A DNA stretch of 64,000 bases, taken from assembly GCA_021770445.1 (NCBI GenBank), contig JAETQY010000015.1:20287-84286 (forward strand). The letters run 5' to 3'. Below the pieces are notes generated by a model. That model searched no databases. It was given only the letters and a program-made list of their open reading frames with translations, and was not told where the DNA came from. The stretch's first letter is position 1. Each line of letters begins with the position of its first letter. The DNA is from Bacillota bacterium (GTDB taxonomy: Bacteria; Bacillota; Clostridia; Oscillospirales; Oscillospiraceae). Positions 6,976 through 39,872 of this stretch are shown in pieces. The translations under genes and the position numbers were made by a program.

Positions 6976-9840
6976 ATGGTAAACTTCGTCATCGCACTGG
7001 AGTGCTTTGGAATATGCCTGACCTTTGTAGCCCTGATCCTCCTGCTCAACGGGGACGGAGCACGGGAACAGAAGCTGCTGATTTTTATTATGTGCGGTTC
7101 GCTGGTGCAGAACGTGGGCTATCTGCTGGAGCTGACCGCCCCCACGCTGGAGGCCGCCGTAACGGCGGTGACGGTGGAAAACGTGGGTTCCGCTTTCGCC
7201 CCGCTGTGCTACTGTTGGTTTACCTATACTTACTGCTACGCCCGTCCGCCCAAGAAGCTGCTGCGCGCCCTCGGCCTCATCAATTTTTTTGTGCTGCCCA
7301 CCGTGTTTTTTAACTGGAACGGCCTGTTCTACCGGGAATTTCAGTGGCTGACCGCCGCGGACGGATTCCACTATATCAGCATCACCTACGGCCCGCTATA
7401 CAGCCTGTTTATGATTACCCGCATCATCATCCCCTATGTTCTGTCCATACACACTCTGGCCCGGGCAGTGCGCCTGCGCTCAGACCAGCAGGTCAGCCGC
7501 CAGTACCAGACGATCCTGGTCATCTCCTCCCTTCCGGTGGTGGTGCTGGTCGCCTATGTGTTCAAGCTCGCCGCGGTGTTCGACCTTACCCCGGTGACCA
7601 TGGCCATCGCCATGTCCATGGTGGTCATTGTGGTGTGGAGCCGCCGCAACTACGATTTCCGCCACCTGGCGGCGGAGAAGGTGCTGGAGAGCCTGGGAGA
7701 CGGGGTCATCGCCCTGGATGATCACGACAGGCTCATCAGCTACAACCGGGCCGCCGCCCGCATTTTTACCAGTCTGCCCTCCCACAAGCTGGGGGAGAAC
7801 ATCCGGGTGGTGGAGGACTTCCGGGAGGAGATGCTCAACGAGAACATCCCCTGGAGCTTCTCCATCAGCACGCAGCACTACGAGTGCCACAGCAAGCAGA
7901 TCGTGGATGAAAACGGCAAAAAGCAGGGCTGTGTCATCCTGATTCTGGATATGACCGACATCAAGGCCTACATCAACGAGATCAAGCGGGTCCGCCAGCA
8001 GGCGGAGAAGGCCAACATCGCCAAAAGCGAGTTTTTGGCCAACATGTCCCACGAGATCCGCACCCCCATGAACGCCATCATCGGCCTGAACGACATCATC
8101 ATGGAGGAGTGCGGAGACCCCCGGATTTACGCCCACGCCAAGGATGTGCAGTCGGCGGCCAAAAACCTGCTGGCCATCATCAACGATATTCTGGACCTGT
8201 CCAAGGTGGAGGCGGGCAAGATGGAGCTGGTGTACACCGACTACCACCTGAAAACCGTGGTGGACGAGGTGGTGGGCATGATGGACATGGCCGCCTCCAA
8301 GCGGGGGCTGGTCCTGAAATACGAGTGTGACAACGCACTCCCGTGCCGCTACAACGGCGACGAGGGGAGAATCAAGCAGATCCTCATCAACATCCTCAAC
8401 AACGCCATCAAGTTCACCAAAGAGGGCTACGTGCGGGTCTATGTCACCGGTGAGCCAGGGACGGGGCCCGACGAGGAGCGCATCACCTTCCGGGTGGAGG
8501 ACACCGGCTGCGGCATCCGGCCGGAGGACCTGGAGAAGATTTTTGAGGATTTCCGCCAGGTGGACTCCAAGAAGAACCGGAGTGTAGAGGGCACCGGCCT
8601 GGGGCTGGCCATTGTCAAGCACCTGGTGGAGCTGATGGGGGGCACCATCGGCGTGGAGAGCGTCTACGGCGAGGGCACTGTCTTTACCATCACGATACTT
8701 CAGAAGATCGTGGACCGGCGCTCCATTGCAGAGGTGCCGGAGATCCCCCAGGGGGAGCTGGAGCAGATGGAGCTGTTTACCGCCCCCGGCGTGAAGGTGC
8801 TGGTGGTGGATGACAACGTCATCAACCGCAAGGTGGCCAGAGGCTTCTTGAAGAGCTACGACTTCGACCTGGACGAGGCCGAAAGCGGGCCGGAGGCCAT
8901 CGAGCTGGTGCGGAAAAACCGGTATGACATCATCTTCATGGATCATATGATGCCTATGATGGACGGCATCGAGGCCGCAGAGATCATCCGCAGGGACTGC
9001 GGCGAGAACGGGACTGCTCCGGCGATCATTGCCCTCACGGCCAACGCCATGGAGGGTATGCGGGAGAAGTTTTTGTCCAAGGGGTTTCAAGACTTTATCG
9101 CCAAACCTCTGGACCGGAGGGCACTGGGCCAGCTGCTGGCCCGCTGGGTCCCGGAGGAGCGCCGGCGGTCCAAAGACGGCGGGGGAGAAGAGGCTGCTGT
9201 CGGAACGGTGGACCTGAGCGCCTTCCAGATTGAGGGGATCGACACGGCGGCTGCGGCCCGGTACTATACCGGCGACGAGGCGGGCTTCGCCGATCTGCTG
9301 GAGCTATACTATATGGACGGCCAGCGCAAGGCGGCCCTTCTGCGCCAGCTCTCCGACACCGATATCTCCAGCTACTGCGTGGAGGTGCACGGCTTGAAGA
9401 GCGCCTCGGCTAACATCGGGGCCATGGAGGTGTCCGAAATGGCCCGGGCCCAAGAGAACGCCGCCAATCAGGGCGACAGGGCGTTTATCGCCCAACAGTT
9501 CCCTGCGCTGCTGGAGGCCTACGAGGCTTTGTTGACCAATATTGAGCTGTTTTTGGCGGCACGCCGCCAAGATGAGACCCCGGAGGAGAAGCTGCCCGCT
9601 CTGTCTGCCGACGAGCTGAAGGGGCAGGTGGGGGCGGCCCTGAGTGCACTGGAGAATTTCAGATCCCAGGAGTGCGCCGGTATAGTGGAGGCCCTCCTGC
9701 ACCACGAGCTGCCCCAGGCGGTGGCGGACGGCCTCAGAGAAATCCAGGGGCAGCTGCGGCTGTATGAGGACGACAATGCGGAGGGGCTGCTGAACCAGCT
9801 TCTGCGTGAACTTGAAAAGGAGGAAGGCGCAAATGATTAA
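6976..9840 (+). CDS. Hybrid sensor histidine kinase: 7TM N-terminus, PAS-like, HisKA/HATPase, REC, HPt
   Basis: FLANMSHEIRTPMNAIIG (H box), GTGLGLAIVKHLVELMGG (G box), VLVVDDNVINRKV + MDHMMPMMDGIE (REC), VEVHGLKSASANIGA (HPt). Confidence 0.93.
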   Translation: MVNFVIALECFGICLTFVALILLLNGDGAREQKLLIFIMCGSLVQNVGYLLELTAPTLEAAVTAVTVENVGSAFAPLCYCWFTYTYCYARPPKKLLRALGLINFFVLPTVFFNWNGLFYREFQWLTAADGFHYISITYGPLYSLFMITRIIIPYVLSIHTLARAVRLRSDQQVSRQYQTILVISSLPVVVLVAYVFKLAAVFDLTPVTMAIAMSMVVIVVWSRRNYDFRHLAAEKVLESLGDGVIALDDHDRLISYNRAAARIFTSLPSHKLGENIRVVEDFREEMLNENIPWSFSISTQHYECHSKQIVDENGKKQGCVILILDMTDIKAYINEIKRVRQQAEKANIAKSEFLANMSHEIRTPMNAIIGLNDIIMEECGDPRIYAHAKDVQSAAKNLLAIINDILDLSKVEAGKMELVYTDYHLKTVVDEVVGMMDMAASKRGLVLKYECDNALPCRYNGDEGRIKQILINILNNAIKFTKEGYVRVYVTGEPGTGPDEERITFRVEDTGCGIRPEDLEKIFEDFRQVDSKKNRSVEGTGLGLAIVKHLVELMGGTIGVESVYGEGTVFTITILQKIVDRRSIAEVPEIPQGELEQMELFTAPGVKVLVVDDNVINRKVARGFLKSYDFDLDEAESGPEAIELVRKNRYDIIFMDHMMPMMDGIEAAEIIRRDCGENGTAPAIIALTANAMEGMREKFLSKGFQDFIAKPLDRRALGQLLARWVPEERRRSKDGGGEEAAVGTVDLSAFQIEGIDTAAAARYYTGDEAGFADLLELYYMDGQRKAALLRQLSDTDISSYCVEVHGLKSASANIGAMEVSEMARAQENAANQGDRAFIAQQFPALLEAYEALLTNIELFLAARRQDETPEEKLPALSADELKGQVGAALSALENFRSQECAGIVEALLHHELPQAVADGLREIQGQLRLYEDDNAEGLLNQLLRELEKEEGAND

Positions 9841-10261
9841 GCCGGAGAAGGGAACCGTGAAAAAGCGCATTCTGGCGGTAGATGACGCGGTGATCATCTT
9901 GCGGAGGATCACCGATGCCCTGGAGGAGTACTACGATGTGGTCACGGTGAATTCCGGGGCGCGGGCTTTGAGATATCTGGAGAAGGAAAAGCCTGACCTG
10001 ATCCTGCTGGACATCCGTATGATGCCCAAGGACGGCCTGGAGACCCTGAAAGAAATTCGGGACATGGAGGACCGGGCCGATATCCCAGTGATTATGCTCA
10101 CCGGTGTGGAGGACAAGAAGTCCGTTATGGAGGGCATTAAGCTGGGTATCTGCGACTATATTCTAAAGCCCTTTTTCCCCGAGGACCTGCTGGAGCGGAT
10201 CCAGCGGGCGCTGGAGTTCAGCGAGGGGAACCGGGCGGACCCGGCCGAAGGGGAGGGCTGA
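9833..10261 (+). CDS. Stand-alone response regulator receiver protein
   Basis: ILAVDD...LILLDIRMMPKDGL...KPF; ATG at 9833 with AAGGAGGA upstream, overlapping the HK stop. Confidence 0.88.
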   Translation: MIKPEKGTVKKRILAVDDAVIILRRITDALEEYYDVVTVNSGARALRYLEKEKPDLILLDIRMMPKDGLETLKEIRDMEDRADIPVIMLTGVEDKKSVMEGIKLGICDYILKPFFPEDLLERIQRALEFSEGNRADPAEGEG

Positions 10262-10264
10262 TTG

Positions 10265-10768
10265 ATGGGCACTGCCATGACGAGGGATACCCTTGCTCAA
10301 ATTTTGGACCAGGCGCTCCAGGATGTGACAGAGCGGACCGCTGGTGTGCGCCTGAATCAGGGGGAGCATATCCTGGGGGACGACCTGTGCACCGTCCATA
10401 TCACCTTTGACCAGGGCTTCGATACCAGCCTCACCCTGTGCGCCGATACCAGCCTGCTGGCCCGCATGGCCCGTAACTCCTTCCACGAGGAGGCGGTGAC
10501 GCCGGAGGACGTGGAGGAATTCAGCAAGGAGTATCTCAATGTGCTGTGCGGCAAGGTGACGGGGGCCATCTACCGGGCCACCCAGTCCGACGTCCATTTC
10601 GGGGCGCCCGTGTTTTATCACGGCCGCTATGAGCCGGAGGGACAGGAGGCCCAGTTTGTGCTCACCTATACCGACGAGCACAGCGAAGGCGCACAGCTGA
10701 TCCACCATCAGGTGCCCTCCGGCGAAGGAAAGGCGGACGGGACTGACAGAAGGGAGCAAATCAGATGA
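10265..10768 (+). CDS. CheX-like chemotaxis phosphatase domain protein
   Basis: Size, alpha/beta pattern and position between receiver genes; EEFSKEYLNVLCGKVTGAIY resembles the CheX/CheC active-site helix. Confidence 0.6.
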   Translation: MGTAMTRDTLAQILDQALQDVTERTAGVRLNQGEHILGDDLCTVHITFDQGFDTSLTLCADTSLLARMARNSFHEEAVTPEDVEEFSKEYLNVLCGKVTGAIYRATQSDVHFGAPVFYHGRYEPEGQEAQFVLTYTDEHSEGAQLIHHQVPSGEGKADGTDRREQIR

Positions 10769-11127
10769 GCAAGAGAATTATGGCAGTGGACGACTCCCGG
10801 CTGGTCAGGGTCCAGCTGGAGGACACCCTGAAGGGGACCGACTACGAGATCGTGGCGTACTGCCGCAGCGGCGAGGACGCCATTGAGCAGTATCCCGTGG
10901 TGCGGCCCGACCTGGTGACCATGGATATTATCATGCAGGGGATGGACGGCCTGGACGCCGCAGAGACCATTTTGAAGAATGATCCGGACGCGCGGATCGT
11001 CATGGTCTCCTCTCTGGCCTACGACGGCACTTTTGAGCGGGCCAAGGCCATCGGGGCCAGGGGCTTTGTAGATAAGCCCTTCCACCAGGAGCAGCTGCTG
11101 AAGGTGTTTGGGGAGGCGCTGTCATAA
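10765..11127 (+). CDS. CheY-like response regulator
   Basis: RIMAVDDSRLVRVQLEDTL, DLVTMDIIMQGMDGLDA, MVSS, DKPF. Confidence 0.9.
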   Translation: MSKRIMAVDDSRLVRVQLEDTLKGTDYEIVAYCRSGEDAIEQYPVVRPDLVTMDIIMQGMDGLDAAETILKNDPDARIVMVSSLAYDGTFERAKAIGARGFVDKPFHQEQLLKVFGEALS

Positions 11128-11212
11128 TGCCGCCAGACCAGGAGAGCGGGTCCTGCGAAAGGCCTGGCGATGGCTGGGTACGCACCTGAGTGCGCTCAAA
11201 ACAACAGATAAA

Positions 11213-11262
11213 GCCCTCCCACCACGTCACAGTGATGTGTGACGCGGTGGGAGGACTTTTTT
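11213..11262. terminator. Convergent terminator between cheY-like gene and beta-galactosidase
   Basis: CCTCCCACCACGTCAC-AGTGATGT-GTGACGCGGTGGGAGG then a T tract. Confidence 0.8.
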
Positions 11263-11302
11263 GATCCCGGGAGAAAAGAGAGGCAATTTTTGCGGGATTT
11301 GG

Positions 11303-13252
11303 TCAAATCAGATCGACCCTGCACTGGAAGGGCTCCAGTGTTACGTCGCCCGCCTTTGCCTGGTGAGCATTGTGGTTGAGATACATTCGGACCCGCTGCT
11401 CCGCGCCGCCTCGGACCACCACCTCCACGCCGTCGTCAGAGGGGATGGTCTCGATGCCGCTGTCCGCCATGATCTGGTCCATCAGCCCGGCGGTAAGGGC
11501 CTCGTCCATGCCGCAGCCCAAGTAGTAGACCGTGCCGTCCCCCTCCTTCCGCCGGGTGACGGCGGCGTACTCCCGATAGAAGGGGTCGTCGTAGCGGTAG
11601 AGGATCTGGGCATCCCGGACGGTGAGCATATCCCGAAAAATGCCGCCCCGGCCTGCGGTGCCGGCGAAGGGACCCTCGCCCACCAGGGGGAAGGCGTCCA
11701 GCGCCTGGAGGCTCTCAGTCTCGGTGACGCTTACCCCGGTCAGGCCGGTGAGACCCACGGGGATCGCCTGGCCAAAGGGGATGTTGTTGTCGGGGGCCTT
11801 GACGGCGCTGCGGTAGGTGAGCACCAGCGTCCCCCCACCCCGGACGAATGCCTCCATCCGAGTCCGGAGCTGCGGCCCGACGACCAACATCTGGGGCGTC
11901 AGGACCACCTTATAGCTGGAGAAATCCCGGCTGCTGGGAATCACATCCACAGGCACATTGGCGTCGAAGAAGGGCTTGTACAGCTTCTTCATCTCATTTT
12001 GACAGTCCAGCAAGACACTCTGGCGCTGGATGCGGAAGGAGGCCAGAGAGTCGTAGTCGTACACGATGGCCACGCAGCTGGAGATGGGGGTCTCCATGGC
12101 CCGGGCATATGGACGGATAGCTTGGAAAAAGCTCTGGACCTCGTAAAACTTCCGGCCCCTGACATTGTCTGCGTCGATAATCCCGTAGCAGAACTGCTCC
12201 GCTCCCTTGGTGGCCCCCCGGTAGCGAAAGTACATCATAGAGGTGCAGCCGTGGGCCATGCCCTGATAGGACCACATTTTGGCCTGGTTGGGTCGGGGCA
12301 GGAAGCCGGTGATATCGTGGCCCTGGGCCCCCATGATGGCCTCGGTGATCCAAAAGTTTTCCCCCTTCAGGCCCCGGATGTAGTCCAGCCCGAAGGCAAT
12401 CTCGTGGGGGGCGAGAGGCTCCTTCTGCCCGCCCCAGACGGGGTAGTTGTTATACGCCACAACGTCCAGGCTCCTCGCTACCCGGGAGTAGTCCACATGC
12501 TTGTCTAACCCGCCTCCGGGGAAGTCGTGGATCACCACGGCCGACCCGTCCAGCTCCTTGATGAGCCGGGCCTGGAAGTCTACAAAGTCCTGGATGCTCT
12601 TGCTGCGAAACCGCTCCCAGTCCAGGCGCAGGGCGGGATTGTGGGCGGCAAGGGTGGCGGCGGGCAGGGGAATCTCGTGGAAGCTGTTGTATTCCTGGGA
12701 CCAGAAGGCGGTGCCGTAGGTATCGTTGAGGCTTGCGATATCTCCGTGGAATTTCTCCTCCAGATACCGCTGGAAGGCCCTTTGACACTGTGGACACCAG
12801 CACAGGTCGCTGCCCTCGTGGCCGATCTCGTTGTCGATCTGCCAGGCTATAATCTGCTTCTCACCCCTGTAGTGGCCCACCAAGGCCCGGACGATCCTCT
12901 CGGTGTACTCGTACATCTCTGGGCTGTTGAAGCAGTAGAGCCGGCGACCCCCAAAGGCCCGTCTCTGCCCATTCTCAGACTGGGAGAGGATGGAGGGGTG
13001 CGCTTTTGCCAGCCAGGCCGGGATGGCCGCAGTGGGGGTGCCCATGATGACATACAGCCCCCGCTCCTTGGCCTTGGCGATGACATTGTCGAAGAAGGAG
13101 AAGTCATACTGTCCCTCCGTTTTCTCCATCAGGTGCCAGGAGAATTCGGCGATTCGGATCACATTGCTCCCCATCTCGCGGATGGTGTCCATATCGGCCT
13201 CCATCAGGGCCGGGTCCCACTGCTCAGGGTAGTAGTCAACGCCTAGCCACAT
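11303..13252 (-). CDS. Beta-galactosidase, GH42
   Basis: MWLGVDYYPEQWDPALMEADMDTIREMG..., IIAWQIDNEIG, ENFWITEAIMG; start chosen at 13252 (GAGGAG upstream). Confidence 0.92.
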   Translation of the reverse strand: MWLGVDYYPEQWDPALMEADMDTIREMGSNVIRIAEFSWHLMEKTEGQYDFSFFDNVIAKAKERGLYVIMGTPTAAIPAWLAKAHPSILSQSENGQRRAFGGRRLYCFNSPEMYEYTERIVRALVGHYRGEKQIIAWQIDNEIGHEGSDLCWCPQCQRAFQRYLEEKFHGDIASLNDTYGTAFWSQEYNSFHEIPLPAATLAAHNPALRLDWERFRSKSIQDFVDFQARLIKELDGSAVVIHDFPGGGLDKHVDYSRVARSLDVVAYNNYPVWGGQKEPLAPHEIAFGLDYIRGLKGENFWITEAIMGAQGHDITGFLPRPNQAKMWSYQGMAHGCTSMMYFRYRGATKGAEQFCYGIIDADNVRGRKFYEVQSFFQAIRPYARAMETPISSCVAIVYDYDSLASFRIQRQSVLLDCQNEMKKLYKPFFDANVPVDVIPSSRDFSSYKVVLTPQMLVVGPQLRTRMEAFVRGGGTLVLTYRSAVKAPDNNIPFGQAIPVGLTGLTGVSVTETESLQALDAFPLVGEGPFAGTAGRGGIFRDMLTVRDAQILYRYDDPFYREYAAVTRRKEGDGTVYYLGCGMDEALTAGLMDQIMADSGIETIPSDDGVEVVVRGGAEQRVRMYLNHNAHQAKAGDVTLEPFQCRVDLI

Positions 13253-13404: not shown

Positions 13405-13433
13405 TTGAAGTCCGTCAGGTGCTGTGATAAAAT
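13405..13433 (+). promoter_or_regulatory. SigA-type promoter of the SWIM/MoxR/vWA operon
   Basis: TTGAAG - 17 nt - TAAAAT upstream of an AAAGGAG-bearing ATG at 13473. Confidence 0.6.
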
Positions 13434-13472
13434 GGCTCCATCTCATACGGTCTATAAAGGAGTGTGTGATTT

Positions 13473-14915
13473 ATGACATTGACGGAACAGATGATCTTGC
13501 TCCAGGCCCCCAACCCCGCGGCGTCGGAGAACGGCCGGAAGCTGTCAAAAAAGGGGAGCTTTTCCGCCCTGCGCCGGACGGAGGACGGCACTCTGTACTG
13601 GGCAGAATGTGCCGGCAGTGGCAAGACCCCCTACCGGGTGTCCGTCGACTGGACCGACCCGGATGCCCCGGTGTGTCGATGCTCCTGCCCCAGCCGGCAG
13701 TTCCCCTGCAAGCACGCCCTGGGGCTGATGTTTGAGCAGCTGTCAGGGAAAGAATTTGAGCCGGCGGACATCCCCCAGGATATCGCCGAAAAGCGGGCCA
13801 AGCAGGCGGCTCGGGCAGCCAAAAAGGAGGCGGCGGGGGACGAGCCGCCCAAGCCCAAAAAGCCAAACGCCGCCGCCCGGAAGAAAAAGCTGGCCAGGCA
13901 GCTGGAGGGGCTGGATATGGCGGAAAAGATGGTGGACGACCTGCTCACCTCCGGCCTGGGGGCGCTGGCCGGGTCCTCCGCCCAGACCTTTGACAAGCTG
14001 GCCAAGGACCTGGGCAGCTGCTACCTCACCGGCCCCCAGACCGCCTTCACCCGCATCGCCCTGGCGGTGCGCACCGTCCAGCAGCACCCGGAGCAGGCGG
14101 AGGGGGCCTACGACCAGGCCCTGCGCATTTTGGTGGCCCTGCGCTCTACCATCAAGAAGTCCCGGGTGTTCCTCCAGGGCAAGCTGGAGGCGGGCGACTT
14201 CTCCCCGGAGGACTCCGCCCTCTTCGAGGCCCTGGGCGGGGTGTGGAAGCTGGAGGACCTGCGGGCCATCGGCTCCTTCAAAGAGAACGCCCGGCTGGTC
14301 CAGCTGTCCTTCGATGTCTCCTTCGACGAGGCCAAGAAGGAGTATGTGGAGCGGGGCTGGTGGATGGACCTGGACAGCGGGGATATCTTCCAGACCTTGA
14401 ATCTGCGCCCGGCCAAGGCGCTGAAATATGTCAAGGGGGAGGACAGTCGCTTCGGCGGGCTGGAGGTCCCCGTCCTGTACATCTACCCCGGCGAGGGAGA
14501 CCGGCGGGTGCGGTGGGAGAGTGCCTCCTCCCGGCCCCTCACAGCGGAGGAGCAGGCGGCCCTGCCCGGTCTGGCCCAGCCCAACCTGGCCACGGCGGTG
14601 AAGCGGACCAAGGGGGCCATCAAAAACACCCTGGCCCCCAAATTCCTGGCGGTGCTGGTCCCTGTGGGGAAGCTGGGCAAGGTGGGGGAGGACTTCGTGC
14701 TGGAGGACTCCGCCGGGGACCGGATCGTCCTGCGGGACCGGCCCCAGGAGGGCCCAGACCACACCTGTACCGCCCGGCTGGCCATGCTCCCTGGAGAGCT
14801 TCCGGCGGGCAGCGCCCTGTTTGGGCTGATGTTCTACGACGAGAGGGACCGCTCCCTCTGTCTGCACCCCTACAGCGTGGTCACGCCGGAGCAAGTCGTC
14901 CGGTTACTGTATTGA
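13473..14915 (+). CDS. SWIM zinc finger protein
   Basis: CRCSCPSRQFPCKHALGLMFE matches the CxCx(n)CxH SWIM motif. Confidence 0.88.
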   Translation: MTLTEQMILLQAPNPAASENGRKLSKKGSFSALRRTEDGTLYWAECAGSGKTPYRVSVDWTDPDAPVCRCSCPSRQFPCKHALGLMFEQLSGKEFEPADIPQDIAEKRAKQAARAAKKEAAGDEPPKPKKPNAAARKKKLARQLEGLDMAEKMVDDLLTSGLGALAGSSAQTFDKLAKDLGSCYLTGPQTAFTRIALAVRTVQQHPEQAEGAYDQALRILVALRSTIKKSRVFLQGKLEAGDFSPEDSALFEALGGVWKLEDLRAIGSFKENARLVQLSFDVSFDEAKKEYVERGWWMDLDSGDIFQTLNLRPAKALKYVKGEDSRFGGLEVPVLYIYPGEGDRRVRWESASSRPLTAEEQAALPGLAQPNLATAVKRTKGAIKNTLAPKFLAVLVPVGKLGKVGEDFVLEDSAGDRIVLRDRPQEGPDHTCTARLAMLPGELPAGSALFGLMFYDERDRSLCLHPYSVVTPEQVVRLLY

Positions 14916-14928
14916 GGAGGTGGCTTTT

Positions 14929-16860
14929 GTGAATTTACAGCCTCTTTATGACGTGAAGGAGCGGCTGGAACAGGCCGCTATCGCCGGCACCGGCCTGCTG
15001 GGGGAGGACTTCCGCCTGACCCGGGCGGCGGAGGCCCTGAAGCCCCTGGCCGGGGCCAGCCCGGTGTTTGGAAAGATCGACGCGGGGCTGGACAAGCTGC
15101 TGGCCGCCCCGGCGGAGGCCCGGTCCGGCTTGCTGCTGGACCTGCTGGCCCTGGTAGACGCGGTGGTCTACACCCAGGCCAAAACCGGGGCAGAGGGGGA
15201 GCTGACCCCTTTACCCGCCGGAAGCGGACAGTATCAGGAGCTGTCCTACGGCCAGCTCCAGCCCCTCCTCGCCGCCCTCACCACCACCGGGGGTGGACGG
15301 ATGGAGACCATCCAGTCCGCCTGGGAGAACCACCCAGAAATTTTCAGCGACTTCCGGGTGCTGCCCGCCCTGGTGGCCGGCCTGGGGGACAGCTACGGGG
15401 AGATCGCCGACCAGAACGGGAAAATTCTGCGGCAATCCGGCCCCGCCGCCGTCCCTCTGCTGAAGGAGGGCTTCGACCCCGCCGGGAAGAAGGAGATGGC
15501 CCGGCGGGTCCAGGTGATGGAGGAGATCGCCGGAGCGTCGGAGAACGCCTGGTATCTGGAGCAGCCTCCCCTGGCGAAAAAGCCGGTGCGGCAGGCGCTG
15601 ATCCTGGCGCTCCGGCACGACCCTGCCAACGTACAGACCCTGATCGGGCTGTGCCAGACGGAGAAAAAAGAATGTCAGGAGGCCGCCCGGTTTGCCCTGG
15701 CGCGGATGGAGACCGAGGAGTCCCGGACCTACTGGGAAACCCTGGCCCAAAAGGACATGTATGGGGCGGTGGCGGCCATGCGGCTCTCCCCCGCCCGGAC
15801 GGCCACCGACCTGACCGCCAGGTGGTTCCTCCAGATGATGGAGCAGGTCAAAAAAGACCCGGTTATGCCCCTGAACGAGGAAATCTTCGGCCTGCTGGGC
15901 CGTCTGCGCACCGCCATCGAGTGTAAGACCGGGCCCAAGGTCTGTGAGGCCTTCCGGGCCGCCGCCGGCCTGGGTACCGCCCTGGACCGGGACTACACCT
16001 ATACGGAAAACGGCAAGACAAAGACCGGGCCCATGCGGTTTTATTGCAGGGGGGCCACCACCGACCCGAATTCCCAGCGGTATTTCAGCGCCGCTGTGCC
16101 CTTCACCCTGATGCGCTCCATCCAATTTACCCGGGACAGCGGCCTGTGCGCCTTAGCCTGGGAGTTGGCCAAGACTTACGGCGGCGGGTGGATTGCCCCC
16201 GCCCTGTGCGCCTCGCTGCTCACCGGGGACAGCGAGACGGCGGGGCAGAGGGCGAAGGAGCTGCTGCGGCCCAAATTCAAGCTGTTCGGCAGAAAGGACA
16301 CCGACACCAGGATCATTCTCCAGGACGTGCTGTGGAGCCTGTGCTGGCACGACGGGCGTTATGTATACATGGTCTACGCCAATGATCCCGTCAACGATGT
16401 CAGAGCGTTCTTTGATCCCGGCGAATACCCCGTGCTCCCCCAGGAGCTGAACCCGGCGTGGTTCGAGCTGCTGCTGGAGATGGGCGGAATGGACGCGCAG
16501 ATTATGAATCTGGTCCGGCCTATGAACCACCCGGTCATGGACAAGGTGGGCAAGTACCTCTATACCCGAATCACGCGGGGCAAAAATCCGGGCAGCTATC
16601 ACCAGTATGTCCACGCGCTGGTTCGGTGCGGCTGGAAGGACTGGGACGGCTTTTTTGTCAAATATGTCCAGGCCCAGGGGGAGGCGCCGTACTACTCCGT
16701 GCAGGGGATGCTGAACGTCCTGCCTATCTCCGGCAGGGAGAAGGCCACCCAGCTGCGGGAGGTCGCCGGCCTGATCAAGGCCAGAAAGCTCAGAGCCCAG
16801 CGGGGCACATGGCCCGATGCCCTGGTTCAGGACTTGATCAACAAGTGGGAAAACGAGTAG
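14929..16860 (+). CDS. Hypothetical alpha-helical (HEAT-like) protein of the SWIM/MoxR/vWA operon
   Basis: Long ORF tightly packed in the operon, helical repeat-like composition; GTG start at 14929 after GAGGAGG. Confidence 0.75.
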   Translation: MNLQPLYDVKERLEQAAIAGTGLLGEDFRLTRAAEALKPLAGASPVFGKIDAGLDKLLAAPAEARSGLLLDLLALVDAVVYTQAKTGAEGELTPLPAGSGQYQELSYGQLQPLLAALTTTGGGRMETIQSAWENHPEIFSDFRVLPALVAGLGDSYGEIADQNGKILRQSGPAAVPLLKEGFDPAGKKEMARRVQVMEEIAGASENAWYLEQPPLAKKPVRQALILALRHDPANVQTLIGLCQTEKKECQEAARFALARMETEESRTYWETLAQKDMYGAVAAMRLSPARTATDLTARWFLQMMEQVKKDPVMPLNEEIFGLLGRLRTAIECKTGPKVCEAFRAAAGLGTALDRDYTYTENGKTKTGPMRFYCRGATTDPNSQRYFSAAVPFTLMRSIQFTRDSGLCALAWELAKTYGGGWIAPALCASLLTGDSETAGQRAKELLRPKFKLFGRKDTDTRIILQDVLWSLCWHDGRYVYMVYANDPVNDVRAFFDPGEYPVLPQELNPAWFELLLEMGGMDAQIMNLVRPMNHPVMDKVGKYLYTRITRGKNPGSYHQYVHALVRCGWKDWDGFFVKYVQAQGEAPYYSVQGMLNVLPISGREKATQLREVAGLIKARKLRAQRGTWPDALVQDLINKWENE

Positions 16861-16873
16861 AGGAGGGAAAAGC

Positions 16874-17968
16874 ATGTCTGACAAAAACGTACAGCGCCTC
16901 CCGGCGGAGGAGCTTTTCCAGCGTGAGCTGGACGCCCTGATTGCGGCGGAGACCGACCCTATCCCCACCGGCTGGCGGATGTCCCCCAAGTCGGTGCTGA
17001 CCTACATCCAGGGCAACACCCGGGTCAAGGGGGTGGACATCACCCCCAAGTACATGGGCAACAGGCGGCTGGTGGAGATCGCCATCGCCACCCTGGTCAC
17101 CGACCGGGCCCTGCTGCTCATCGGCGAGCCGGGCACCGCCAAGAGCTGGCTCAGCGAGCATCTGGCCGCCGCCGTCAACGGCGACTCCACCAAGGTGGTT
17201 CAGGGGACGGCGGGCACCACCGAGGAGCAGATTCGCTACTCCTGGAACTACGCCATGCTCATCGCCAAGGGCCCCTGCCCCGAGGCCATGGTGAAAAGCC
17301 CGGTTTACCGGGCCATGGAGACGGGCTCCATCGCCCGCATTGAGGAGATCTCCCGCTGTGCCAGCGAGGTGCAGGACGCCCTCATTTCCATCCTGTCGGA
17401 AAAGCGGCTGTCCGTCCCCGAGCTGGGACTGGAAGTCTCAGCACAGAAGGGCTTCTCCGTCATCGCCACCGCCAACACCCGGGACAAGGGGGTCAACGAC
17501 ATGTCCGCCGCCCTGAAGCGGCGCTTCAACATCGTTGTCCTGCCCACTCCGTCGGATATGGCGACCGAGATCGAAATTGTCTCCACCCGAGTGGCCCAGC
17601 TGTCTGCCGGCCTGGATCTCAACGCCCGCCAGCCCGACGGGGACACGGTGGAGCAGGTGGTCACCATCTTCCGGGAGCTGCGAAGCGGCGCCACCCTGGA
17701 CGGCAAGCAGAAGCTGAAGCCCACCTCCGGGGTGCTGTCCACCGCCGAGGCCATCTCCCTGCTGGCCAACTCCATGGCTCTGGCCGGCAGCTTCGGGAAC
17801 GGCTCCATCGGGGCCGAGGATCTGGCCGCCGCCCTCCAGGGAGCGGTGGTCAAGGACGAGGACAAGGACAAGGTGAGCTGGAAAGAATATTTGGAGAACG
17901 TGATGAAGAAGCGGGGCTCCGCCTGGCTGCCCCTCTACCGGGCCTGCCGGGAGCTGAACGGGAAATGA
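16874..17968 (+). CDS. MoxR-type AAA+ ATPase
   Basis: Walker A LLLIGEPGTAKSWLSEH; IARIEEISRCASEVQDALISILSEKRL Walker B/sensor region; SVIATANTRDKGVNDMSAALKRRFN. Confidence 0.92.
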   Translation: MSDKNVQRLPAEELFQRELDALIAAETDPIPTGWRMSPKSVLTYIQGNTRVKGVDITPKYMGNRRLVEIAIATLVTDRALLLIGEPGTAKSWLSEHLAAAVNGDSTKVVQGTAGTTEEQIRYSWNYAMLIAKGPCPEAMVKSPVYRAMETGSIARIEEISRCASEVQDALISILSEKRLSVPELGLEVSAQKGFSVIATANTRDKGVNDMSAALKRRFNIVVLPTPSDMATEIEIVSTRVAQLSAGLDLNARQPDGDTVEQVVTIFRELRSGATLDGKQKLKPTSGVLSTAEAISLLANSMALAGSFGNGSIGAEDLAAALQGAVVKDEDKDKVSWKEYLENVMKKRGSAWLPLYRACRELNGK

Positions 17969-20235
17969 ATAAACCGACATTTTTCGGCGTGCGCCACCTG
18001 TCCCCGACGGCGGCGTACCACCTGCGCCGGGCGCTGGACGAGGCACAGCCCCGGCTGGTGCTGGTGGAGGGCCCCAGCGACTTAAACGGCCAGATGGAGT
18101 GGCTGTGCCACCCCGAGACCCAATTCCCCGCCGCCATCCTGGCCTACACCCGGACGCCCCCGGTGCGCACCATCCTGTGGCCCTTCGCCATCTACTCCCC
18201 GGAGATCCAGGCCATCCTCTGGGCCCATGAGCACCAGGTGGAGTGCCGGTTTATGGATCTGCCCTCCTCGGTGTTCCTGGCCTTCCGGGAGGCGGAGGAG
18301 GCCCGGGCCGCGGAGGAGGACGCCGGCCCGCCGGAGGAGCGGCAGGAGACCACCGAGTCTGTCTACAGACGGCTGGAGACCCTCACCGGCGAGGAGCACG
18401 ACACCTTCTGGGAGCGGCACTTTGAGCAGACAGAGGACTATCGATCCGCCGCCAACGCGTTCGGCCGTGAGCTCCGGGCGGCGTCGGAGGACAGCCGGCT
18501 GGACAGGGCGGAGAACATCGTCCGGGAGGCCTATATGAAGCGGGTCATTCAGGAGGCCGTCGACGCCGGCGTGACCGCGGAGAAGATCTTCTGTGTCTGC
18601 GGGGCCTTCCATGTGGCGGGACTGGAGGAGAACGCCCCCATGACGGACGAGGAAGAGGCGTCCCTCCCTCGGGCGGAGGCCTGCGCCACCCTGATGCCCT
18701 ACTCCTACTACCGGCTGTCCTCCCGCTCGGGCTACGGGGCGGGGAACAGGGCCCCGGCCTACTTTGGACTGCTGTGGGACGCTCTCAACGGGGAAGGCTT
18801 GAAACAGGCCCCCTATCTCTATCTGACACGCCTGGCCGCCGCCCACCGGAAGGCGGGCAACCTGGTCTCCTCCGCCGAGGTCATCGAGGCGGTGCGGCTG
18901 GCCGATACCCTGGCCGGGATGCGGGGGAGCAGGTATCCCACCCTGGCCGACCTGCGGGACGCCTCGGTGACAACCATGGGCCACGGGCAGTTTTCCGAGC
19001 TGGCTCTGGCGGCGGCGGACACCGAAATCGGCAAAAAGATCGGCTTTCTCCCCGAGGGGGTGGCCCGCACCAGCGTACAGGAGGACTTCTACCGCCAGCT
19101 CAAGGAGCTGCGGCTGGAGAAATTCCGTACCGCGGAGCTCCAGCGGCTGGATCTGGACTTGCGGGAGAAGCTGAATGTGAAGTCGGAGACGGCCGCCCTG
19201 GCCGACCTGCGGCGTTCCTTCTTCCTCCACCGGCTGCGGGTGCTGGGAATCCACTTCGCCGCGCTGCTTCCTTCCCGGCAGGAGGGGGCCAACTGGGGGG
19301 AGTACTGGGAGCTGCGCTGGACCCCCGAGGCGGAGATTGAGATTGTGGAATCCGCCCTTATGGGGGACACCGTCCAGGGGGCGGCAGCCTACGCCCTGAA
19401 GGAGCGGGCGGACAACAGTACCTCCATCAGCCAGGCGGCCGCCATCTTCCAGGACGCCTTCCTGTGCGGGATGCCTGCTGCCGCCCAGCACGCCCTGTCG
19501 GTACTCCAGGGGCTAGGGGTGGACGCGGCCGCCATTGCCGAGGTGGCCGAGACGGCCTCCCGGCTCAGTCTGGTGGTGCGCTACGGCGACCTGCGCCGGT
19601 TCGACCCCGCGCCAGTGGAGCCCCTGGTCCAGCAGCTCTACCTCCGGGCCTGCCTGACATTAGCAGACGCCTGTATCTGCGACGCCCAGGCCGCTCCGGC
19701 GGTGACCAAGGCCATGGATCAGCTCAATACGCTACAGCTCAGCCACGACTTTCTGGAGCAGGACCGGTGGATCGCACTGCTGGAAGAGATTTCTGACCGG
19801 GACGACCTAAATACCCGCTGCTCCGGCTTCGCCATGGCCATCCTGCTGGAGCGGGGAGAGGCGGACGAGGACCTGCTCTCCCGGGAGGTGGCCCGGCGGC
19901 TGTCCCCCGGCGTGCCCGCCGACCTGGGCGCGGGGTGGTTCGAGGGGCTGGCGGGGAAGAACCGCTACGCCCTCATTGCCCGGCTGTCTCTGTGGCGGCA
20001 GCTGGACGACTACCTCAGTACCCTGGATGATGAGACCTTCCGCCGGGCGCTGGTGTTCCTCCGCCGGGCCTTCGCTGACTTCTCCCCCAAGGAGAAGAAC
20101 GACATCGCCGAAAACCTGGGGGAAATCTGGGGGGTAAACCCCCAGCAGGCGGCGGAGCTGCTGATGAACGAGACGACACAGGCCGAACAGGCGGTGCTGG
20201 ACAGCCTGTCCGACTTCGACTTTGACGATATTTAG
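17965..20235 (+). CDS. DUF5682-like protein (possible TraB/Tiki/EreA/ChaN-type fold in N-terminal part)
   Basis: FFGVRHLSPTAAYHLRRALDEAQPRLVLVEGPSDL and VCGAFHVAGLE motifs; 4-bp overlap with the MoxR gene. Confidence 0.8.
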   Translation: MNKPTFFGVRHLSPTAAYHLRRALDEAQPRLVLVEGPSDLNGQMEWLCHPETQFPAAILAYTRTPPVRTILWPFAIYSPEIQAILWAHEHQVECRFMDLPSSVFLAFREAEEARAAEEDAGPPEERQETTESVYRRLETLTGEEHDTFWERHFEQTEDYRSAANAFGRELRAASEDSRLDRAENIVREAYMKRVIQEAVDAGVTAEKIFCVCGAFHVAGLEENAPMTDEEEASLPRAEACATLMPYSYYRLSSRSGYGAGNRAPAYFGLLWDALNGEGLKQAPYLYLTRLAAAHRKAGNLVSSAEVIEAVRLADTLAGMRGSRYPTLADLRDASVTTMGHGQFSELALAAADTEIGKKIGFLPEGVARTSVQEDFYRQLKELRLEKFRTAELQRLDLDLREKLNVKSETAALADLRRSFFLHRLRVLGIHFAALLPSRQEGANWGEYWELRWTPEAEIEIVESALMGDTVQGAAAYALKERADNSTSISQAAAIFQDAFLCGMPAAAQHALSVLQGLGVDAAAIAEVAETASRLSLVVRYGDLRRFDPAPVEPLVQQLYLRACLTLADACICDAQAAPAVTKAMDQLNTLQLSHDFLEQDRWIALLEEISDRDDLNTRCSGFAMAILLERGEADEDLLSREVARRLSPGVPADLGAGWFEGLAGKNRYALIARLSLWRQLDDYLSTLDDETFRRALVFLRRAFADFSPKEKNDIAENLGEIWGVNPQQAAELLMNETTQAEQAVLDSLSDFDFDDI

Positions 20236-20246
20236 GGGGTGTGCCT

Positions 20247-21386
20247 ATGTCACAGACGGAACAGCTCTCCCGCTGGCGGCTGATCTTGGGCTCTGAGACG
20301 GAGGAGTCCTTCTCTGGGATGGGGGGCAGCCCCCTGTCCCAGGAGGAGCTGCTCATGGACTCCGCCCTAGGGGCCATCTACGGCGGGCCGGGGGAGTCCT
20401 TCGGCGGCGGGTCCGGCGGGGGTGCGGGGAAGGGTCCCTCCTCCCCCCACATCTCCAAGTGGTTGGGTGACCTGCGCTCCCTCTTCGATCCGGAGATCGT
20501 GGCGGTGGTGCAGAACGACGCCATCGAACGCAAGGGTCTGAAGCAGCTCCTCCTGGAGCCTGAGCTGCTGGACACCCTGGAGCCCGACCTGAATTTGGCC
20601 TCCACCCTGCTGATGCTCAAGGACCAGATCCCCAAGAAGTCCAAGGAGTCGGCCCGGGCTTTTATCCGCAAGATCGTGGAGGAGATCAACAAGCTGCTGG
20701 AGAACGACGTGCGCCGGGCGGTGACGGCGGCCCTGAACCGCCGGGCCCACTCGCCCCTGCCCTCGGCGTCGGCGCTGGATTTCCCCTATACGATTCGGAG
20801 AAATTTGAAGAATTATAACAAAGAGTTGGACTCTATCATCCCGGAGCGGGTGTGGTTCTTCGACCGGGCCAGTCGGGTCAACCGATGGCACGTCATTCTG
20901 GACATCGACCAGAGCGGTTCCATGGGCCAATCCATCCTCTACTCCTCGGTGATGGCCTGCGTGCTGGCCTCCATGTCCGCCGTCCGCACCAGTGTGGTGG
21001 CCTTCGATACCCAGATTATGGACCTGACCCCCCTGTGCGCCGATCCGGTGGACCTGCTCTTCGGCTTTCAGATGGGGGGTGGCACCGACATCGCCAAGTC
21101 CATCGCCTACTGCCAGGAGCTGGTGGAGACCCCGGCCAGGACGCTGTTTTTCCTCATCTCCGACCTGGACGAGGGGGGCAACCGTGCGGGCCTGCTCCGC
21201 CGGCTGGAGGAGCTAAAGACCTCCGGTGTGACAGTGGTGGTCCTGCTGGCCATCGCCGACGGGGGCAAGCCCTACTACGACGCCCAGACCGCCCAGCGGG
21301 TGGCCGCTATGGACATCCCCTGCTTTGCCTGTGCCCCGGAGAAGCTGCCCGAGCTGCTGGAGCGGGCCCTGACCGGGAGACTATAG
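20247..21386 (+). CDS. vWA domain protein (CoxE-like)
   Basis: MIDAS-like LDIDQSGSMGQS, GGGTDIAKS, ISDLDEGG; last gene of the operon. Confidence 0.88.
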   Translation: MSQTEQLSRWRLILGSETEESFSGMGGSPLSQEELLMDSALGAIYGGPGESFGGGSGGGAGKGPSSPHISKWLGDLRSLFDPEIVAVVQNDAIERKGLKQLLLEPELLDTLEPDLNLASTLLMLKDQIPKKSKESARAFIRKIVEEINKLLENDVRRAVTAALNRRAHSPLPSASALDFPYTIRRNLKNYNKELDSIIPERVWFFDRASRVNRWHVILDIDQSGSMGQSILYSSVMACVLASMSAVRTSVVAFDTQIMDLTPLCADPVDLLFGFQMGGGTDIAKSIAYCQELVETPARTLFFLISDLDEGGNRAGLLRRLEELKTSGVTVVVLLAIADGGKPYYDAQTAQRVAAMDIPCFACAPEKLPELLERALTGRL

Positions 21387-21405
21387 AGGCCGATCCGGAG
21401 ACGTA

Positions 21406-21435
21406 AAAGCTCCCGCCTGAGAAGGCGGGAGCTTT
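21406..21435. terminator. Rho-independent terminator after the vWA gene
   Basis: AAAGCTCCCGCC-TGAGAA-GGCGGGAGCTTT. Confidence 0.8.
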
Positions 21436-35051: not shown

Positions 35052-35241
35052 ACTAAGTAATATACACCATTTTGAATATTATGGCAATGCTTTTTTCGAG
35101 GACATTCGGAGTTTTGCCACCCAGTGCGGACGCTCTGTCCTCTGCGTCGGAATCGATTTGGACAGAGCGGACTGCTGCCGTGCTAAAATACGACACAATA
35201 CAGGCATATCCATTGAAAATAACCATTTAGGAGGGAATTTT

Positions 35242-35844
35242 ATGGAGATTAAGACCACTATGGCCACCTGCCCCAATGGCCACCACTACGACGGGGCTAA
35301 ACATGCCAGCTGCCCCTTCTGCGGCGCCGTCCCCGGCACGGAGAACCTTGGGGGCGGCTTCAGTGCCACCGAGCCACTGACCGGCGGCGGGTATTCCCCC
35401 AACTTCGGCTCCACTGCGCCCCCGGTGGGAGGGGTCAATCCCTTCAGCGTGGAGACCATGATCGGCGGCGACCAGGGGAGCCCCGGTCAGGCCGAGCCCG
35501 TGGTGGGCTGGTTGGTGTGTGTGGAGGGGCCGGTACGGGGGAGTGACTACCGTGTCCACGCCGGCTACAACTACATCGGCCGGGAGTCGGGGGACATCCA
35601 GATCCGGGGGGACCAGCAGATCTCCCGTCAAAACCACGCCATGATTGCCTTCGATAGCAGCGAGCTGACCTACTTCGTTGGCCCTGCCGCCGGCCGCAAC
35701 CTGATTAAGGTCAACGGCAAGACGGTGCTCAACGCAGTAGAGATCAACAGCTACGATATCATCTCCATTGGCACCACCAAGCTGATTTTTGTGGCCCTAT
35801 GCGGTGAGCGGTTCAACTGGCAGCAGGAGGGCGGCAATGGCTGA
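35242..35844 (+). CDS. Zinc-ribbon + FHA domain protein
   Basis: CPNGHHYDGAKHASCPFCG ribbon; NYIGRESGDIQIRGDQQISRQNHAMIAFD FHA core. Confidence 0.85.
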   Translation: MEIKTTMATCPNGHHYDGAKHASCPFCGAVPGTENLGGGFSATEPLTGGGYSPNFGSTAPPVGGVNPFSVETMIGGDQGSPGQAEPVVGWLVCVEGPVRGSDYRVHAGYNYIGRESGDIQIRGDQQISRQNHAMIAFDSSELTYFVGPAAGRNLIKVNGKTVLNAVEINSYDIISIGTTKLIFVALCGERFNWQQEGGNG

Positions 35845-36670
35845 GCCAGGGAAGGGCATCACCGGGATGTGGGCCAGGCTGTTCCGGCGGGAGCCCGAGC
35901 CCGCCGCCAACAGCGGATGGATTGCCATTGAGAAGCTCCATGAGCAGGGCCAACGTAAGAGCCAGCAGGACAGCTTCTTCGTCTCCCCCGAGGAGGACGC
36001 CTTCCCCCGGGAGCGGATTGAGCAGGGCCCCGGTGTGCTGGCCGTGGTGGGGGACGGTATGGGCGGCCTGAGCAACGGCGACCAGGTGAGCCAGACGGCG
36101 GTGACCGCCATTGCCAACAGCTTCGCCACCCTCCAGGGCCCGCCGGAGGAGGTGCTGCTCACCCTTCTGACCCGGGCCAATCTGGCCGTCAACGACATGC
36201 TGGGCCCCGACGGGCTGTACAGCGGCGGCTCCACCCTGGTGATGGCGCTGCTCCGGGAGGGACGGTTCCACTGTCTGTCGGTGGGGGACAGCCGCATCTG
36301 CCTGTGCCGGGACGGCGCCCTGTTTCAGCTCAACCGGGAGCATGTCTTTCGGGATGAGCTGTATCTCCGGGCGGTAAACGGCGAGACCTCTGTGGCGGAG
36401 GCCATGAGCCACCCCCAGGGCGCCGGTCTGACCAGCTTTCTGGGCATGGGACAGCTGAAATACGCCGACCTGCCCGCCCAGTCCCTCCTGATCCGCCCCG
36501 GTGACGTGTTTATCCTCATGAGCGACGGGGTATACAACGCCCTCCCCGAGGAGGAGCTGACCGGGCTCCTGGCCCGGGGGCCGGGGGCGGCGGAGGCCAT
36601 CCGGGCGGCCATACAGGAAAAAGACTACTCCAATCAGGACAACTATACCGCCGTGATCCTGCGCTGCTGA
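35837..36670 (+). CDS. PP2C family Ser/Thr phosphatase
   Basis: VVGDGMGGLSNGDQVS, SVGDSRICL, MSDGVYNAL, NQDNYTAVIL. Confidence 0.9.
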   Translation: MAEPGKGITGMWARLFRREPEPAANSGWIAIEKLHEQGQRKSQQDSFFVSPEEDAFPRERIEQGPGVLAVVGDGMGGLSNGDQVSQTAVTAIANSFATLQGPPEEVLLTLLTRANLAVNDMLGPDGLYSGGSTLVMALLREGRFHCLSVGDSRICLCRDGALFQLNREHVFRDELYLRAVNGETSVAEAMSHPQGAGLTSFLGMGQLKYADLPAQSLLIRPGDVFILMSDGVYNALPEEELTGLLARGPGAAEAIRAAIQEKDYSNQDNYTAVILRC

Positions 36671-36705
36671 AGCGCCGGACGGCACAACGACCGGGAGGCG
36701 ATACC

Positions 36706-37422
36706 ATGTTCCAGATCGCAAGCTATTCAGAGACAGGGGGCCGTCCCCACAACGAGGACACCGTCCGCAGCGTCCTCCGGGGGGAGGACCGGCTGTGCCT
36801 GGTGGTGGCCGACGGGCTGGGGGGCCACGGCGGCGGAGAGGAGGCCTCGGCGGCCGCCGCGGAGGTGATCTGCCAGGGCTGGGGAGGAGAGGCGAACCCA
36901 GAGGAGCTGGAGCACCTGATCCAGGAGGGGCACCGCAGGGTGCTCTCCCTCCAGACCCGCCAGTGTGCCATGAAAACCACCGTGACGGCGCTGGCCCTGG
37001 AGCCAGGGAGAGCGGTGATGGCCCACGTGGGGGACAGCCGCATCTACTACTTCCGGGACGGCGGGTTGACCTTTCAGACCAGGGACCACAGCGCCGCCCA
37101 GATCGGTGTGATGCTGGGGGAGATCACCCCCGACCAGATCCGCTTCCACGAGGACCGCAGCCGAGTGCTCCGGGCCCTGGGCCAGGACGGGGAGCTGAAG
37201 GTGGATATCCGCGAGGAAAGGCTGTCCCCTGGGAGGCACGCCTTCCTGCTGTGCAGCGACGGCTTCTGGGAGTATGTGCTGGAGCAGGAGATGGTGGACG
37301 ACCTGGCCGCCGCCGCCAGCCCGGAGGAGTGGCTGGACAAGATGCGGGCTCGACTCATTGCCCGGGCCCCGGAGGACAACGACAACAACACTGCCGCCGC
37401 CGTATGGGCGGAGGAAGAATAA
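36706..37422 (+). CDS. PP2C family Ser/Thr phosphatase
   Basis: VVADGLGGHGGGEEAS, HVGDSRIYYF, LCSDGFWEYV, EDNDNNTAAAVW. Confidence 0.9.
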   Translation: MFQIASYSETGGRPHNEDTVRSVLRGEDRLCLVVADGLGGHGGGEEASAAAAEVICQGWGGEANPEELEHLIQEGHRRVLSLQTRQCAMKTTVTALALEPGRAVMAHVGDSRIYYFRDGGLTFQTRDHSAAQIGVMLGEITPDQIRFHEDRSRVLRALGQDGELKVDIREERLSPGRHAFLLCSDGFWEYVLEQEMVDDLAAAASPEEWLDKMRARLIARAPEDNDNNTAAAVWAEEE

Positions 37423-37437
37423 AGTGGAGGAATTTTC

Positions 37438-38811: not shown

Positions 38812-38812
38812 T

Positions 38813-39811
38813 ATGGAGCTCTGTCCCCACTGCATGAGGCCCGCGGAGGAGGGCAGTCTCTGTCCCCACTGCGGCAAGAGCCTTCGAGACGGCAACCCGG
38901 AGCACCTCCTCCCGGTGGGGACGGTGCTCAGGGGGAACCAGAACCGCTACCGCCTGGGGGCCCACCTGGGCCAGGGGGGCTTCGGTGTCACCTACATCGC
39001 CCTGGAGGAGGAGACCGGCCGCCGGGCGGCGGTGAAGGAGTACTTTCCCACCCGCTGCTCCCGCCGGGCCCCGGACGGACAGGTGGAGGCCCTCCCCGGC
39101 CAGGAGGGGGTCTATGAGGGCGGGCGCTACCACTTTGTGGAGGAGGCCCGGATGCTGGCATCCCTGGAGGGGATGCCGGCGGTGGTCCAGGGCATCGACT
39201 ACATCGAGACCAACAACACCGCCTATCTGGTGATGGAGTATCTGGACGGCACCCCCCTGTACCGCATCGTCAACGAGAGGGGCCGCATCCCCGCCGGGGA
39301 GCTGCTGCCCCGCCTGCGGCCCCTGATGGAGGACATCGGCAAGCTCCACGCCGCGGGGGTCATCCACCGGGACATCAGCCCGGACAACGTGATGTGGATG
39401 AAGACGGGCAATCTGAAGCTGCTGGACTTCGGCTGCGCCCGGTCCATGGAGGACGGCAAGTCCATGACGGTGCTGCTCAAGCATGGCTTCGCCCCGGTGG
39501 AGCAGTACCAGACCCACGGCCAGGGGCCCTGGACCGACGTGTACGCCCTGGCGGCCACGGTGTACCACAGCCTCACCGGGGTGGTTCCCCCCACCTCCAC
39601 GGAGCGGCTGCTGGACGACGCCCTCCAGCGGCCCACCGCCCTGGGGGCGGAGCTAAGTCCCGCCCAGGAGGAGGCCCTGCTGTGGGCCTTGAAGGTACCG
39701 CCTAAGGAGCGCCCCGCTGACATGGGGGCCTTCTGCGCCCGGCTCTTCCCTGAGTCGGCGGCGCCCCTCACCCTCTGGGAGAGGGTGAAGCGGCTGTTCC
39801 GGAGGTTGTGA
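38813..39811 (+). CDS. Zinc-ribbon Ser/Thr protein kinase
   Basis: CPHCMRPAEEGSLCPHCG; GQGGFGVTYIA, AAVKEYFP, VIHRDISPDNVMW, LLDFGCAR. Confidence 0.92.
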   Translation: MELCPHCMRPAEEGSLCPHCGKSLRDGNPEHLLPVGTVLRGNQNRYRLGAHLGQGGFGVTYIALEEETGRRAAVKEYFPTRCSRRAPDGQVEALPGQEGVYEGGRYHFVEEARMLASLEGMPAVVQGIDYIETNNTAYLVMEYLDGTPLYRIVNERGRIPAGELLPRLRPLMEDIGKLHAAGVIHRDISPDNVMWMKTGNLKLLDFGCARSMEDGKSMTVLLKHGFAPVEQYQTHGQGPWTDVYALAATVYHSLTGVVPPTSTERLLDDALQRPTALGAELSPAQEEALLWALKVPPKERPADMGAFCARLFPESAAPLTLWERVKRLFRRL

Positions 39812-39834
39812 ATGAAGTGAGCATGATGTATAAT
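39806..39834 (+). promoter_or_regulatory. Internal SigA-type promoter for the second kinase gene
   Basis: TTGTGA - 17 nt - TATAAT. Confidence 0.5.
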
Positions 39835-39872
39835 AGTCCGTATCAGTATGGGCCAGAGAGGAGGTGAGGCGC

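Follow-up and report, generated by a model that had tools for sequence, protein, structure and literature searches.

The window, by which we mean the whole 64,000-nucleotide stretch of DNA that was analyzed, carries five co-directional ORFs on the + strand between positions 13473 and 21386. A preliminary description of this DNA had listed five tightly packed same-strand ORFs with one 4-bp overlap, a promoter-like sequence at 13405, and a terminator at 21406. All five ORFs were confirmed: they are separated by gaps of at most 13 bp, and the 4-bp overlap (ATGA, between the MoxR and DUF5682 genes) is real. Third-position GC is 0.85-0.90 in every one of them, as in the neighboring genes, and all five are therefore real genes. 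The features of the operon are:

13405..13433, + strand: promoter-like site TTGAAG-17-TAAAAT with extended TG; consensus scan, 9/12, a consensus match alone
13473..14915, + strand: SWIM zinc-finger protein, 480 aa; ATG start with AAGGAG before it; PF04434, 1.5e-6
14929..16860, + strand: HEAT-repeat protein, 643 aa; GTG start; HEAT_2 matches among its homologs
16874..17968, + strand: MoxR AAA+ ATPase of the YehL type, 364 aa; AAA_5 PF07728, 1.8e-39
17965..20235, + strand: DUF5682 protein, 756 aa, homolog of E. coli YehM; PF18934, 2.2e-152, full match
17965..18750, + strand: N-terminal domain of DUF5682, residues 1-262, predicted hydrolase domain of the TIKI/TraB/Ere superfamily; hhalign, Foldseek, and invariant residues
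20247..21386, + strand: vWA (CoxE-like) protein, 379 aa; VWA_CoxE PF05762, 4.6e-45
21406..21435, + strand: terminator-like hairpin AAAGCTCCCGCC-TGAGAA-GGCGGGAGCTTT; RNA fold -37.5 kcal/mol, z -5.7

The promoter-like sequence was thus recovered, and the label "DUF5682-like" given to the fourth protein proved too cautious in view of its full match to the family. For the terminator, the strong hairpin stands; its stem is followed on the 3' side by three T only, and because of this short tract the consensus terminator scanner did not report it; intrinsic termination is no more than likely. An alternative in-frame GTG start of the HEAT gene is possible at 14920. By eye, we noted two other gene runs in the window. 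One (6976-11127), immediately ahead of a GH42 gene, encodes a large sensor-like protein and after it a response regulator, a CheX-like protein, and another CheY-like protein. The other (35158-43226) seems to encode zinc-ribbon proteins, a phosphatase of the PP2C type, and two Ser/Thr-kinase-like proteins that carry zinc ribbons at their N termini.

Conservation and distribution of the operon

The MoxR-DUF5682-vWA core is already known: its homolog is yehL-yehM-yehP-yehQ of E. coli K-12 (b2119-b2122), which the preliminary description had missed, together with the named YehL subfamily of MoxR ATPases. To follow the arrangement we used 80 loci chosen by the MoxR gene alone, from Bacillota, Spirochaetota, Bacteroidota, Verrucomicrobiota, Planctomycetota, Chloroflexota, Actinomycetota, and Pseudomonadota. 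Against the possibility, raised in the preliminary description, that the genes rarely co-occur in other genomes, DUF5682 adjoins MoxR in 78 of these 80 loci; apart from a few loci and those where the contig breaks off, vWA comes next, and the upstream SWIM-HEAT pair and vWA usually follow the order seen in the window. Loci selected by DUF5682, in turn, carry MoxR and vWA. When both selections are pooled with the E. coli locus (101 loci), the number of loci with each component is 100 for MoxR, 99 for DUF5682, 90 for vWA, 83 for SWIM, and 67 for HEAT; these counts are not independent events, since the loci are related to one another. By this conservation, the five-gene arrangement is far beyond chance, and the operon is a real and widely conserved one of the YehL kind, in its SWIM-HEAT variant.

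Two gene orders were found. One is that of the window, SWIM-HEAT-MoxR-DUF5682-vWA; in the other, seen in E. coli and some Paenibacillaceae, a SWIM gene lies downstream of MoxR-DUF5682-vWA, which has a DUF4132 gene as a neighbor. DUF4132 proteins (PF13569) recur next to the E. coli-like form (L001, 4280-7912; L045, 13094-16762), and one is also found in a locus of the SWIM-DUF5691 type (L125, 13601-16555), where its chain also contains HEAT repeats.

DUF5682 is present in 22 of the 64 genomes of the window's genus, in 18 of 295 in a sample of the order, and in 8 of 399 in a sample of the phylum above the cut-off; among Paenibacillaceae it is found in 159 of 300. The window's flanking genes are shared by none of 12 congeneric loci, so the operon occupies different sites in different species. 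In E. coli, yehP is present in 5298 of 5426 complete genomes (98%). Some large plasmids carry the operon. The viral contigs searched yielded AAA matches of ∼24% identity only, and the operon is practically absent from phages. A 14-kb unannotated fecal contig filed as phage (MT835988.1) encodes at 10569-12770 a DUF5682 protein 52% identical to the window's; it may be misfiled host DNA.

The MoxR-vWA pair and the HEAT and SWIM proteins

In the alignment, the MoxR protein conserves the Walker A motif GEPGTAK (with G-x-PGTAK invariant), an EE Walker B, and the RR arginine residues. The MIDAS site of the vWA protein is complete (D221-x-S223-x-S225, T280, and D306), and its residues are invariant in 17 of 17 aligned sequences. 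Judged by these ATPase and MIDAS motifs, the MoxR-vWA pair is intact. In known pairs of this type, the ATPase ring restructures a partner while the vWA protein grips a peptide (PMC7159879), and their established roles are maturation and metal insertion (PMC3893208; PMC7159879).

The HEAT protein of the window, taken alone, matches HEAT_2 below threshold (0.099), and 21 of its 33 homologs match this model, the best at 5.4e-13. It is the fastest-evolving member of the operon: at MoxR identity of at least 85%, median identity is 50% for HEAT, 69% for SWIM, 76% for DUF5682, 83% for vWA, and 89% for MoxR. Moreover, its gene is tandemly duplicated in at least six loci, with up to four copies that are 25%-60% identical. 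Two such loci (L226, 11584-18999; L189, 11998-19500) each hold four tandem HEAT-family ORFs, with copies 25%-52% identical, and a single MoxR-DUF5682-vWA core. Because it evolves fastest and forms tandem arrays, the HEAT protein is the likeliest receptor. The preliminary description had cast the SWIM protein as target recognizer, a part for which it is the HEAT protein that behaves as the variable candidate and the SWIM protein not demonstrably so. The fast divergence of HEAT would fit a receptor under pressure to change.

The HEAT slot is filled by DUF5691 in the two Bacteroidota loci tested, and DUF5691 relatives take this position in 13 loci. Homology between the HEAT gene and DUF5691 was considered and rejected, hhalign giving only 5%; the equivalence is one of position only. 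As for the SWIM protein, its zinc ligands C-x-C...C-x-H (C70, C72, C79, and H81) are invariant in 33 aligned sequences.

The N-terminal domain of DUF5682

The AlphaFold2 model of the whole DUF5682 protein (pLDDT 89.8) shows an alpha/beta domain at the N terminus and helical repeats after it. The N-terminal domain has a beta-sheet core (strands E5-9, E31-37, E93-98, and E208-213 in the model) and contains the motif set G8-x-x-H11 (G-x-R-H), E35, R187 (R-E), and G213-x-x-H216. It was the order of these motifs, noticed ahead of the structural searches, that pointed to the TIKI/TraB/Ere/ChaN superfamily. Residues H11, E35, R187, and H216, as well as both glycines of the G-x-x-H motifs, are identical in 44 of 44 DUF5682 homologs and are kept in E. 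coli YehM. We compared a profile of the domain (44 sequences) with a TraB-family profile built from unrelated loci; hhalign gave a probability of 92.2% (E 5.9e-7, 196 columns) with all four motifs paired in the alignment, versus 0.1%-0.6% in three control comparisons. Sequence searches with DUF5682 reached no solved structure. In Foldseek searches against the PDB, the model of the N-terminal domain (pLDDT 90.1) ranked the erythromycin esterase EreC (6xcq) first, a weak match (E 0.024, probability 0.69, TM-score 0.36). The domain was searched alone since the whole chain had returned uninformative matches, to alpha-solenoids only and at E > 0.03.

A TIKI endopeptidase described earlier cannot do without its catalytic His and Glu or a conserved Arg, and its Arg-4001 and His-4030 lie 29 residues apart (PMC6254334). 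The same His/Glu/Arg/His order is found in H11, E35, R187, and H216 of the window's protein, with an identical spacing of 29 residues between R187 and H216. The ExH glutamate of the 2His/2Glu motif of RRSP is absent from DUF5682, which has a TraB-like GxxH in its place. Thus, DUF5682 resembles the TIKI/TraB/PrgY/Ere superfamily in the order of its fold and in the motif set G-x-x-H ... E ... R ... G-x-x-H. It differs in being only ∼13% identical, below detection by the Pfam TraB and Ere models, and in that the domain is joined to a long helical-repeat part and genetically coupled to a MoxR-vWA motor. Taken together, the profile-profile comparison, the motif order, and the weak but top-ranking structural match make it very probable that DUF5682 has a TIKI-type N-terminal domain. 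The assignment to this superfamily, which includes Tiki proteases and erythromycin esterases, is new here.

We predict that DUF5682 is an active hydrolase. The TIKI superfamily also has non-hydrolytic members, such as the heme-binding ChaN; as it comprises all three kinds, the chemistry of DUF5682 may be that of a protease, of an esterase, or of binding. Two genomes encode DUF5682 and vWA as a fusion in a single frame (L044, 1049 aa; L092, 1187 aa), and these natural fusions indicate that the two proteins are physically coupled. Open frames of ∼1200 aa had seemed to represent many more such fusions; the regions checked held separate genes, and only these two were therefore kept.

Proposed function, alternatives, and known systems

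We suggest that the products of all five genes form a single cytoplasmic AAA+ machine, which is of the YehL type. The ATP-driven MoxR ring would pull on or remodel the vWA co-chaperone, whose MIDAS site would grip a peptide or partner. The vWA protein would be physically coupled to DUF5682, in which the TIKI/TraB/Ere-type hydrolase domain would sit on a helical-repeat scaffold, and ATP hydrolysis would load substrate into this hydrolase or switch it on; in the simplest reading, the partner restructured by the motor would be DUF5682 itself. The fast-diverging HEAT protein would select which substrate is acted on and the SWIM protein, which binds zinc, would serve as an adaptor, the two together bringing the substrate. 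The ATP step could load substrate, open the enzyme, or mature it with a metal. What we infer here is the complex itself, the activity of DUF5682 as a hydrolase and its substrate, and the parts played by HEAT and SWIM. The preliminary description had also regarded the five proteins as one machine, a view favored by the gene order conserved across phyla, the two DUF5682-vWA fusions, and the intact MoxR-vWA pair; its suggestion of DUF5682 as possible effector now appears likely, with a predicted enzymatic fold. On balance we lean toward a TIKI-type hydrolase served by a MoxR-vWA motor, which would load or regulate it, the whole being an ATP-regulated hydrolase machine. Only tentatively would we go further, to a motor dedicated to the TIKI hydrolase and forming an ATP-regulated protease or esterase unlike Clp, Lon, FtsH, and the proteasome, with a rapidly diversifying HEAT receptor and conserved in organisms as far apart as E. 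coli, clostridia, and Bacteroidota.

Some neighbors of the operon point to RNA repair. In a clostridial MAG (L077, 3499-9491), the vWA gene is surrounded by inserted genes for RtcB, an ankyrin protein, and a pair of paralogs of 466 and 475 aa; the RtcB gene stands within the operon and separates DUF5682 from vWA. RtcB is also found 84 bp (L184) and 161 bp (L186) upstream of the SWIM gene, and within ∼12 kb of the operon in L185, L187, and L188. Pnkp-, Hen1-, KptA-, NAMPT-, Nudix-, and ADP-ribosylglycohydrolase-like genes adjoin the operon in L085/L186 and L095. In Cohnella endophytica (L186, 1176-19365, on the same contig as L085), the operon stands within an apparent run of RNA-repair and NAD-salvage genes, most of them named by eye: nucleotidyltransferase, Hen1-like, Pnkp-like, and RtcB on one side, and PRPP synthetase-, NAMPT-, Nudix-, and ADP-ribosylglycohydrolase-like on the other. 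The machine could accordingly be an accessory that helps or regulates the healing of cleaved RNA with RtcB, Pnkp/Hen1, KptA, and NAD-salvage enzymes. Across 80 Paenibacillaceae genomes, six RtcB genes lie within 12 kb of the operon versus 0.52 expected, which is significant by gene count; however, the six cases come from two genera, and counted as two events they give P ∼0.10. Among 23 carriers examined, the window's genome and a further 13 lack RtcB altogether, so the operon cannot depend on the RNA ligase as a partner. With neighbors limited to certain lineages and no RtcB in the window's genome, we rejected RNA repair as the main function, and even an accessory role of this kind appears very improbable.

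The operon could instead encode a maturation machine like CoxD-CoxE, NorQ-NorD, and the chelatases, in which MoxR-vWA inserts or activates a cofactor and DUF5682, as a TIKI-fold metal or heme protein, is the client. The CoxE-like family of the vWA protein, the binding of metal or heme by some TIKI members, and the DUF4132 gene adjoining the core in the E. coli-like order all agree with such a machine. We also count in its favor that the DUF4132 locus was once tied to molybdate metabolism (molR). Maturation and metal insertion are, as noted, the known roles of MoxR-vWA pairs (PMC3893208; PMC7159879). Nevertheless, the neighborhoods examined contain no recurrent metalloenzyme or cofactor gene, and the diversifying HEAT gene would be left without explanation; we consider maturation unlikely. 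The same HEAT gene, which diversifies and duplicates, would have a place in an anti-phage or conflict system where HEAT (and SWIM) sense an invader and MoxR-vWA releases DUF5682 as a toxic effector. Predicted conflict systems do have MoxR-vWA cores (PMC7159879), and both the patchy occurrence in genus (22/64) and order (18/295) and the differing flanks at all 12 congeneric loci are in keeping with one. Yet PADLOC matched no system, returning only weak domain-level matches of which the best (7.7e-5) falls on residues 1-90 of the SWIM protein; the near-universal presence of yehP in E. coli is unlike typical accessory defense; phages and viral contigs all but lack the operon; DUF5682 is of one constant type rather than a variable effector; and in the window the operon is flanked by carbohydrate genes, outside any defense island. 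The conflict-system reading of the preliminary description is thus not established, its third component being fixed and its E. coli version belonging to the species core, and we hold it to be quite improbable.

The ATP-regulated hydrolase machine that we favor gives a testable idea of what the YehL-type MoxR motor drives, and one that can be tested in K-12. The assignment of DUF5682 (YehM) provides the first concrete and mutable predicted active site, namely H11, E35, R187, and H216 in the numbering of the window's protein. The cluster is widespread and present in nearly every E. coli genome; if the proposal is true, it would extend by an enzyme class the range of outputs under the control of AAA+ motors.

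Seven MoxR subfamilies are distinguished, YehL among them (PMC3893208). We found no published function for the yeh operon (yehL/yehM/yehP/yehQ) and no mention of DUF5682, in a literature search that covered few subscription papers. The window shares with yehLMPQ the core order MoxR-DUF5682-vWA, with identities of 40% to YehL (full length), 26% to YehM, and 33% to YehP (both near full length), and a SWIM zinc-finger gene in the operon. In E. coli, however, the SWIM gene (yehQ) comes last, the slot of the HEAT gene is without one, and a DUF4132 gene (yehI) lies upstream. PF04434 is found in both SWIM proteins, and BLASTP detected no full-length similarity between the window's and YehQ. RavA is from a different MoxR subfamily than the window's MoxR, and RavA-ViaA is not known to have DUF5682, HEAT, or SWIM partners. 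What RavA-ViaA has in common with the operon is a chaperone-like MoxR-vWA pair (PMC3893208). The ternary conflict systems built on MoxR-vWA (VMAP, iSTAND, FtsH, and beta-propeller), in whose main description neither Yeh nor SWIM proteins are named (PMC7159879), are similar in combining MoxR, a MIDAS-bearing vWA protein, and a third component. None of their four third components was among the Pfam matches of the five proteins, and the window's MoxR reaches the model of the beta-propeller-system MoxR barely at its cut-off (27.7 versus 27 bits). The third component of the window's operon differs from theirs in being fixed: it is DUF5682, a predicted TIKI-type enzyme.
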